A stretch of 64,000 nucleotides of DNA, from NCBI GenBank assembly GCA_030141605.1, contig JAQGDQ010000005.1, forward strand, positions 868,180-932,179. Reading direction: 5' to 3'. Each line of letters opens with the position of its first letter. Positions within the stretch are counted from its first letter, which is position 1. The notes under the pieces were generated by a model. It saw only the letters and a list, made by a program, of their open reading frames with translations, was not told the origin of the DNA and ran no database searches. Below are positions 27,082 to 37,665 of this stretch, one piece after another. A program made the translations under genes and the position numbers. The DNA is from Tubiluchus corallicola (lineage: Eukaryota; Priapulida; Priapulimorpha; Priapulimorphida; Tubiluchidae).

Positions 27082-27532
27082 CCTTTTGGAAACGATATTG
27101 ACGAAGGCAAAAAATTGTCTAAATTAGCTGACTGCAAAATGTGCAACAGAGTAAGCACATATGATGAAATTCTGTTCCTAAGAAACTCTTTACAGGTGCT
27201 TTTTAACTGGTCACAAGAATTGCAAATGCTATTCAATGAAAGTAAATATAAATTAATACATATGGGGTTTTCAATTCCACACCAGGATCATTTGTTTAAT
27301 AACACTTCATTAACATTTTATGCTGTTCAGGAAGAGACTGACTTATGTGTTATTATGTCATCTGACGTAAAACCTGGAAAACACATCTCCACACAAGTCA
27401 AAAAAGCAAACATAATACTTGGTGTAATAAACAGAACATTCATTAATAAAAATGCAAGCGTACTCATCACACTGTATAAATCTTAAGTCCGTCCAAATGT
27501 GGAATACGCTAGTCTTGTTTGGAATGATGGGG
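27082..27532 (+). mobile_element. LINE reverse-transcriptase fragment, broken
   Basis: The plus frame reads NDIDEGKKLSKLADCK, then LFNWSQELQMLFNESKYKLI, KKANIILGVINRTFINK and, across a TAA, VRPNVEYASLVW. This is the palm-to-thumb part of a non-LTR reverse transcriptase, where the family normally has NDID-G-SK-SKFADDTK, W-MFN--KCK-MH-G, KKA--LG-I-R-F and LYKSLVRP-LEY---VW. The catalytic F/YADD is degraded to LADC, and a stop replaces the Leu before VRP. Only about 150 codons remain, so it is a dead fragment. Confidence 0.88.
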
Positions 27533-35000: not shown

Positions 35001-37665
35001 TTATATTATACGACAAGAAACCGTGCAAACCGGGAACTTGTTGGTGATGTTGGTGACAATGACAGTACTTCAGCATTCTCCGTAACATTAAATGGAGGCT
35101 GTTATTCCCGAAGAAAAATAAATTTGAAACACATGCAACATACATTTACACGATCATTATTTATACGATTAATACATCAAGATATACTTTTAATTTACAC
35201 CAGAAATCTTGAACATAGATCGCCTTTCTTTTAACTTTTCTGTCTCGGAAGACAATGGAGTTATTGATCACATTGATGGAGCTGCATCGTCGACTGTAGC
35301 TGAGCAATCCGATCCTTGAACCACTGGAGTGGCCTCTCCAGGGCACACGCCTGGGCAAGGTGTATGGAGATCCTGAGTTGCCCAGACAACAGGAACCCCC
35401 TCTATTCCTCCCTGGTGTAGTCCAAAGGAAAGCGGAGCGATACGTTTGGCACTAGGTTGGCTGCAGGAGCTGCCGGAGTCAGTGAGCATGCTGCACTGGT
35501 CCGCCTTCGGGGCTCCACTCCTGATTTGGAAGGTTTACTCGTACACATGGCCATTGGGTCACTTGACCTCCTCCGCCCTCTAGCCGTTGGCTGCTTGTGC
35601 AGCTTTCCGCCTAGTGTTGAGATACAGTGTGGGCATCCCGCAAGCCTACAGCACCTGGTATTCTTAGGCGGTCACCTATCCAAGTACTAACCAGGCTCTA
35701 CGTTGCTTAACTTCGGTGATCAGACGAGAACCGGTGTTTTCAACGTGATATGGACGTAGATGTCTTCTTTTAATTACAATTCTATTTACGTTATGAAAAA
35801 ATAATAAACAATGTAGGTCTAGAGTTACACTATATAATTTTACGTATAGATGCATACATACCTTCTTTGTAAAAATGTTTGTGTATGTTATTTTTCAAAC
35901 CTACGATGAAAGTTAAATGCAGCCTGGATTTGAACCAGAGCCCTTCTGCTTACATTATGACTCCCCAGACCACTAGGTAACCACATTTGTCTAAGTGTTT
36001 AAAGCAGTCCAAAGTTCATCACTTATAGCTAGCCAAGCAAATTCATTAATTTGTTGTGGATTGTAACATACTAATAATAATCTTAACACTAAAATTACAA
36101 TAATAGTATACACTTGCACTCATTTTATTAAAATTTAATAGCATATAATAATCGTACATAGTACACAAAATTGGTCCTCCTGCACTCAAATGTAAAAAAA
36201 GTTATGTAAAGAATGGAATAAAGTATATGCATACATAGGTTAATAAAATGGAGCAATGTATGTTATACGAAACGGAGTCTCTCTTTCATATGACTAGCAC
36301 GCATTTGACAAGAATAGAGTAAAATACAAGGGTACTAAAGATCATGAAAATGGAGTAATCATCAATGTGTGCTACAGAAGTCTTCCCTTTTTATATATAC
36401 ATCTAACAAGGTTGTGGTAAAAATAGGATAAAATGTATCAGTATAACGATTGTGAAAAAATGGCATTAGTAACAAAAAATGGATCCTCCCACTTAGAATA
36501 TAGGTCTAACAAGGTTGTGTAAAGAATGGAGTAACCTAAACTATGAACTGTTCCACCGTGCTGATAATGTGTTGCTCGGATAAGCTTACTAGGTCAGTTG
36601 CTGCTCAGTTACTGGAATAATGGGAATCCAAAATAAGCTCTGAATCGCAGGAATGGTGGAGTTTCAAGTTCAACAAAAATTTCTGAGGTTATTTCTGTCA
36701 GCTTAATTGGCTTTTTTTCAAACCAACTTTACTATGCGCGAGTTTTAAATGACGTGACACCTTGGCAAAAGTCAGCTGTGTAAGTTTAAGGAGTTAGTCA
36801 TTCATTCATTCAGTCAGTCAGTCAGTTGACTAGTCAATCAATCAATAGTGAGTGAGTCAACCAGCTTAGTCAATCATTAAGTTCAATAGTTTGACGCATT
36901 TATACAACCCAGCGAAGTAATCAGCCATATATTTTTATGAGTGGATAGAACAGTAGAAAATAGCCGAAAAAGAAACGTTTTCTGTGTTACGTACGTGCGT
37001 ACAGGGAGAGTTCTCAATGTAAACAACGACATTACAATTATATCCGGAAAGTTCTGTTAAATAAAAGCACGTTGACGAACAGCACTATTTTAATTACAAA
37101 CCAATGGCAAAAAAATTATAGTCGATTCATTCAAGAGAAACAACAAATTGTTTTCATCCGCGTAAGACGCAATGCGTGCTAGAAGAAATTGAAACTAGGC
37201 TTATCATTGTCTCAGCTGTGACTTGATCAATACAATTGAAGCTGTACTGTACACGGTAGAATTGGTGACCACTCTTATGTATGCAAACACTCAATTTGCC
37301 ACTATTTAACAATAAATATTTTGAAAACCTTAACCTGTTAAAATCTTCCTGTTCATAGCAAAAGCTCTTTTAAGAATTCATTGATTGCACAAATCAGGCT
37401 AAGCATAAAGTTGCACTAAGTAAATAACTAGGTGACACCGTATTACCTCCTGTAAATAAATCATGATACCTGCATCAAACAAAGGGTCGTCTTCTAAAAC
37501 ACACACAGCAGTTTCGACAGCATCAGTTACCGAGCCGCCCTTCATTAGCATTTGATATCCGGCTTTAGCAGCCCGTTTTACTCCCTCCATTGTCGCTTCT
37601 CGCATTTCTTCCGTTTGTATGTGAAACGCTCCTCCATGAACGATTAGTGTGGGTGTAATACTCAT
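29058..37665 (-). CDS. ASRGL1: Asparaginase-like isoaspartyl peptidase/L-asparaginase, complete, six exons
   Basis: Exons on the minus strand: 37665-37470, 33105-32963, 31439-31279, 30860-30739, 30342-30232, 29260-29058 (stop TAA). All introns are GT-AG and the phases fit. They encode 311 residues against about 308 in the human protein. The enzyme is an N-terminal-nucleophile hydrolase. The family cleaves itself before a threonine and hydrolyses L-asparagine and beta-aspartyl dipeptides in the cytosol. Visible features are LIVHGGAF near the N-terminus, GSVLNADG and EMDAVIMEG in exon 2, the nucleophile Thr172 in [14 protein letters not shown], then [21 protein letters not shown] and THMPWAY. 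The residue before the nucleophile is Asp rather than the Gly common in vertebrates. The linker before it is shorter than in the human protein. Intron 1 (4.4 kb) contains the 5S-headed retroposon. The gene is convergent with the orphan gene and divergent from CDK9. Confidence 0.95.
32222..32400. repeat. Polypurine (GA-rich) tract, about 180 bp
   Basis: The plus strand is almost pure purine (AGAGAGATAGAGAGAGAAAG and similar) for about 180 bases. It lies in intron 2 of the asparaginase-like gene. Such tracts can form triplex DNA, but that is not shown here. Confidence 0.85.
33187..33290. repeat. (CTA)n/(CTG)n microsatellite
   Basis: CTACTACTACTACTACTGCT occurs at 33187-33212 and a CTG run of eight or more units followed by CTACCA units at 33233-33290. 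It lies in intron 1 of the asparaginase-like gene and gives spurious poly-Ala, Val and Ser frames. Confidence 0.9.
35237..35764 (-). mobile_element. 5S-rRNA-headed retroposon (SINE3-like), about 528 bp
   Basis: On the minus strand the unit begins with a 120-nt 5S rRNA-like head (35761-35642). It runs straight on, without the T-run that ends true 5S genes, into about 400 bp of relatively GC-rich body. It ends near 35237 in CGAGACAGAAA. An 11-bp imperfect direct repeat, TTCTTTTAAYT, flanks it at 35226-35236 and 35765-35775, as a target-site duplication would. The combination of a 5S promoter head, a body and flanking repeats is the known layout of SINE3-type elements. The body matches nothing I can name and may come from a LINE tail. 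The insertion lies in an intron and is GC-richer than its surroundings. Confidence 0.72.
35642..35761 (-). rRNA. 5S rRNA-like sequence (head of a retroposon, probably not a working gene)
   Basis: The 120-nt minus-strand block aligns end to end with animal 5S rRNA. It has ATCTACGTCCATATCACGTT at the 5' end, AAGTTAAGCAACG in the box A region, GGTTAGTACTTGGAT and GGTGACCGCC in the box C region, and GTGCTGTAGGCTT at the 3' end. Several conserved G/C positions are changed (GGCC to GTCC, GTCGGGCCC to GTAGAGCCT, CCTGGGAA to CCTAAGAA), mainly transitions, as in a methylated and decaying copy. No terminator T-run follows. Confidence 0.75.
35915..35985 (-). repeat. tRNA-like (SINE-type) relic
   Basis: On the minus strand TGGTTACCTAGTGGTCTGGG resembles a tRNA D-arm/A box, and CTCTGGTTCAAATCCAGG carries a good B box with a short T-stem, about 35 bases apart. 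The acceptor stem does not close. It lies next to the 5S-headed retroposon but outside its flanking repeats. Confidence 0.5.
36798..36860. repeat. Tetranucleotide repeat (TCAT/CAGT/CAAT)n
   Basis: TCATTCATTCATT is followed by CAGTCAGTCAGTCAGT, TCAATCAATCAAT and GTGAGTGAGT. It is a compound microsatellite in intron 1 of the asparaginase-like gene. Confidence 0.85.

Follow-up and report, generated by a model that had tools for sequence, protein, structure and literature searches.

Zebrafish SINE3 was reportedly described by Kapitonov and Jurka in 2003. The DeuSINE superfamily is recognized by a central domain, Deu, within the body. 5S-derived SINEs (SINE3) are known from zebrafish and other fish, as AmnSINE1, and from fruit bats, the springhare, a beetle and several moths, and have been reported from Aspergillus (PMC3747384, PMC3272025, PMC8010984, PMC5063351). 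Zebrafish SINE3 and the 5S-headed DeuSINEs AmnSINE1 and OS-SINE1 join a 5' 5S rRNA-derived head to an unrelated body and insert in a LINE-dependent manner, the partner LINEs of this group being CR1 or RSg-1 (PMC3747384). The lepidopteran elements HaSE3, PxSE4, PxSE5, LaSE2 and CsSE2 carry a 5S head with boxes A, IE and C, occur in 532 to 4,415 copies, measure 294-389 bp and, in some cases, have trinucleotide 3' tails (PMC3272025, PMC8010984); their heads have diverged, those of PxSE4 and PxSE5 being ~63% identical to Bombyx 5S (PMC8010984). Springhare Ped-1, which is mobilised by the LINE BovB (PMC3747384), and the 5S SINEs of fruit bats likewise have a 5S-derived head.

The element analyzed here lies in a 64,000-nucleotide stretch of Tubiluchus corallicola DNA, which we refer to as the window. 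It shares with zebrafish SINE3, AmnSINE1 and OS-SINE1 the 5' 5S rRNA-derived head, the unrelated body and, presumably, LINE-dependent insertion; unlike in that group, we found no partner LINE, and the tail is (CAA)n behind a TGTCT-TCCG-AGACA hairpin. It resembles the lepidopteran elements in its 5S head with boxes A, IE and C, its trinucleotide tail and its similar copy number, whereas its head is 98% identical to host 5S and its length is ~565 bp. Ped-1 and the fruit-bat elements, from different hosts, are likened to it by the head. By its defining 5S head the element is of the SINE3 type, the class to which the original prediction had assigned it, and we consider it highly probable (about 94%) that the window element is a copy of a non-autonomous 5S rRNA-derived SINE that spread via a Pol III transcript and a LINE reverse transcriptase. 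The family is apparently, and likely, undescribed, being set apart from known families by their descriptions rather than by comparison with Repbase or SINEBase. It is a further example of a known, uncommon element class and introduces no new principle; it is a large, young addition to a class described from few lineages, and its head has hardly departed from the host gene.

Anatomy of the window copy

The retroposon occupies window positions 35237-35764 on the minus strand and consists of a 5S rRNA head and a ~405-bp body, flanked by an 11-bp duplication (10/11); it therefore reads from right to left, a strand that the original prediction had not named. In an Rfam scan, minus-strand positions 35643-35761 matched RF00001 over the whole model (1-120) with 101.7 bits (cut-off 38, E 4e-21); the scan gave no family other than 5S in the element, so that the body has no Rfam match. 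The head ends ...GTAGGCTT at 35642 on the minus strand, has no terminator T-run, and continues straight into GCGGGATGCCC / GCGGGATGCCCACACTG and the rest of the 405-bp body, which ends at 35237. A full-length 5S head that lacks its T-run and passes directly into a body of about 400 bp (measured at 405 bp, 35641-35237) had been proposed from the letters of the window, and each of these points is borne out. The features, in the order of the element, are as follows:

35765..35775, target-site duplication (TSD) on the 5' side of the element, TTCTTTTAATT on the plus strand; 10/11 match to 35226-35236, family-wide flank-repeat statistics
35760..35764, minus strand, GACAT, five additional bases that separate the 5' duplication from the first aligned 5S base
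35642..35759, minus strand, 5S rRNA-derived head, 118 nt; RF00001 at 101.7 bits, 45-copy head consensus
35237..35641, minus strand, body of non-5S sequence, 405 bp
35238..35261, minus strand, remnant of the 3' terminal hairpin (CTCCATTGTCT-TCCG-AGACAGAA); blastn of the consensus against the window (24/24), fold of the consensus 3' end
35226..35236, TSD on the 3' side of the element, TTCTTTTAACT on the plus strand

Many family copies have GA or a few other bases in the place occupied here by GACAT. By homology, the internal Pol III control region (box A, IE and box C) is contained within the 118-nt head. Relative to the family consensus, the window copy is without 17 nt (GACTCTCTTGGCGCACA) ahead of the hairpin and has lost the terminal GGATGCC(CAA)n; it is an internally deleted, 3'-shortened and probably immobile member of the family.

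The family and its head-body junction

The genome searched was the window's own assembly (343.5 Mb in 2344 contigs). The element yielded 2122 first-look candidates, of which the best 40 were scored; among these, the other copies are 93-96% identical over almost the whole element. A 25-mer taken across the head-body junction, with at most 3 mismatches allowed, has 1,200 occurrences on many contigs, 598 on one strand and 602 on the other, and its reversed-pattern control occurs nowhere in the genome; the exact junction is also absent from viral and prokaryote sequence collections, as expected. The genome contains 304 exact matches to the tail GGATGCCAACAACAAC in its context. A single-copy body, or 5S heads not joined to it elsewhere, would have told against the original prediction; the body is multi-copy, and one fixed junction recurs in about 1,200 places. 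Because some assembly contigs duplicate each other (the loci L065 and L070, for example, are identical), the true copy number is somewhat below 1,200. On each of contigs C44, C2105 and C2125, exactly 49,032 bases separate two RVT_1 matches, a spacing which indicates that the assembly repeats the same region and that copy counts are inflated.

A consensus built from 45 distinct copies describes a complete element of ~565 nt, comprising GA, the 118-nt 5S head and a remainder of ~446 nt that includes a 3' hairpin and a (CAA)n tail. Folding of its 3' end, GGCGCACACTCCATTGTCTTCCGAGACAGAAGGATGCC(CAA)n, gives a hairpin, TTGTCT-TCCG-AGACAG, enclosed by outer pairs. T-runs in the consensus are all shorter than four, and it contains no tRNA. 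With 1,200 junctions on many contigs and a length of ~565 nt, the family is dispersed, multi-copy, short and non-coding, as SINEs are. Two SINE copies, L124 (contig C1319) and L123 (contig C720), have internal deletions that join distant parts of the element.

The head consensus of the 45 copies is identical to the host 5S gene consensus at 116/118 positions, and the box A, IE and C region that it carries lies at the element's 5' end. True 5S genes are clustered on several contigs; they have a TATA-like box (TATAAACCCG, TGTAAACCCG or a near variant) ~30 bases upstream in 24/25 flank variants, and in them GGCTT is followed immediately by T's. Both of these gene features are missing from the SINE, and the 5' flanks of its copies show no excess of TATA boxes (1/46, controls 0-2).

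The near identity of the head to host 5S genes is also what one would see if the body were an independent repeat and the reverse transcriptase, by switching templates as in U6-LINE chimeras, picked up 5S RNA afresh with every insertion. Against this, the junction falls at the identical base in 45/45 distinct aligned copies, and one of the two head differences, A95, is present in 44/45 SINE heads and in 0/12 distinct 5S gene sequences, which already contradicts fresh capture. Essentially no bodies with a different head were seen: exact body starts without the expected G at one junction base number only 19, and 15 of these still have TGTAG, the end of 5S. The fixed junction and A95 together show that head and body are inherited as one unit, and we regard capture at each insertion as very improbable. 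The fused unit has been copied; this, and not repeated 5S capture, is what the copies show.

Copies diverge from the consensus by ~3-4% per site and have few variants in common, and head and body distances among them are not correlated (Mantel r -0.21). Since A95 is common to the heads, we read this value as reflecting a star-like burst and not as evidence against co-inheritance; the low divergence, the few common variants and the missing correlation are all expected if few sources expanded in a burst fairly recently. As the copies examined were the best-scoring ones, the estimate is biased towards a young age.

Several SINE heads (L024, L025, L028, L031 and L036) score 114-116 bits against RF00001, within the range of real genes; homology-based annotation will mistake many SINE heads for 5S rRNA genes. 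The 5S genes clustered on contig C779 (L010-L012 and L027) switch orientation between 45,994 and 46,944, and their spacers are of several types.

Retroposition of the family

To characterize the insertion sites, we scored the best repeat between the 5' and 3' flanks of 47 copies and compared it with mismatched flank pairs. A score of at least 10 was reached by 36% of copies and 0.4% of mismatched pairs, and a score of at least 9 by 47% and 1.5%, respectively; for roughly half of the copies this method gave no clear TSD. TSD lengths vary within the family, from about 9 to 15 bp. The flank repeat of the window copy scores 9, a value also attained by 2/46 mismatched partner flanks, so that its TSD is, taken alone, only suggestive.

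An empty site provides direct evidence. Copy L008 sits inside another repeat, an empty version of which adjoins copy L003; the joined L008 flanks align to positions 1286-1073 of the L003 locus at 90%, straight across the insertion point, and the empty site holds a single copy of the 12-bp target ATGACACCTTGA. Insertion with target-site duplication is thereby shown directly, and the TSDs and the empty site together show retroposition of the family. The 11-bp duplication of the window copy (TTCTTTTAACT / TTCTTTTAATT, 10/11), which had been named as a candidate TSD of a retroposon, belongs to a family whose TSDs are far above chance, and the proposal of a retroposon holds for the family as a whole.

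These target sites also bear on 5S-containing LTR elements such as Cassandra or Ajax (TRIM), or a solo LTR from one, which come into consideration since Cassandra/Ajax-type elements carry 5S-derived promoters (PMC10886601). Their TSDs have a fixed length of 4-6 bp, whereas those here are about 9 to 15 bp; moreover, the element here has 5S sequence at its very 5' end and a microsatellite tail at its 3' end, and no paired LTR-like copies occur among the aligned loci. The class is defined by two LTRs, a primer-binding site and a fixed short TSD, and what we find is a single unit with variable TSDs; we regard an LTR origin as very improbable. Spread of a pseudogene or spacer unit from 5S rDNA arrays by DNA-level duplication, although 5S clusters lie on several contigs and the assembly contains duplicated contigs, has next to no probability, because real 5S units have a TATA-like box, a T-run and spacers unlike the SINE body, the copies are dispersed with differing flanks and TSDs, and the empty site with a single target copy already contradicts it.

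Proposed mobilization and the search for a partner LINE

For the SINE, we propose that the transcript of a 5S gene became fused, at the exact 5S end and without the T-run, to the ~446-nt sequence with the hairpin and (CAA)n. RNA polymerase III would, as in the class generally, start from the internal 5S control region, which is intact, and read the whole fused unit, and since the consensus has no T4+, the transcript could pass through the body. A reverse transcriptase encoded by a LINE, again by analogy with the class, would recognize the 3' hairpin and repeats, and target-primed reverse transcription would then insert the RNA and make duplications of 9-15 bp; the duplications and the empty site are observed, and the priming step is the likely route to them. 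It has been argued that retroposed 5S promoters lacking upstream signals are weak (PMC8010984, PMC3272025), which counts against this model. The family is at the same time well suited to testing how such promoters function when the TATA-like element found upstream of the host genes is missing.

The 3' end of a SINE is either common to its partner LINE (stringent type) or poly-A (relaxed type). A match between the 3' end of the element and LINE tails, suggested in the original prediction as a point of comparison, did not emerge from a non-exhaustive search covering tail patterns, 30 RVT_1 loci and 18 CR1/L2-like 3' ends. Exact and 3-mismatch tail patterns, with the SINE context excluded, gave no LINE with the same 3' end, their matches being, where readable, SINE copies altered by deletions or shifts; the 30 RVT_1 loci that were read have other tails, none with the SINE 3' end, and the 18 CR1/L2-like 3' ends likewise have other tails, none shared with the SINE. 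It is conceivable, though we think it unlikely, that the near-wild-type 5S head folds, binds TFIIIA/L5 and brings the SINE RNA to ribosomes making LINE protein, the partner LINE having vanished or having an unlike tail and the SINE being a young orphan.

The genome contains many and varied CR1/L2-like relatives. One CR1/L2-like LINE family (L116, L117, L118 and L122) ends in the trinucleotide repeat (TAC)n, behind 3' sequence unlike that of the SINE. Within the window, an ORF at 27115-27486 on the plus strand resembles, by eye, the C-terminal region of the reverse transcriptase of a CR1/L2-like LINE; it has no Pfam match. About 150 bp from the 5S element, positions 35915-35990 on the minus strand form a tRNA-like stretch (GGTTACCTAGTGGTCTGGGGAGTC...GGTTCAAATCCAGGCTGCA) that contains sequences resembling box A and box B. 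It received no ARAGORN call and has no match among the other loci compared, and it may be the relic of a tRNA-derived SINE or a tRNA pseudogene.
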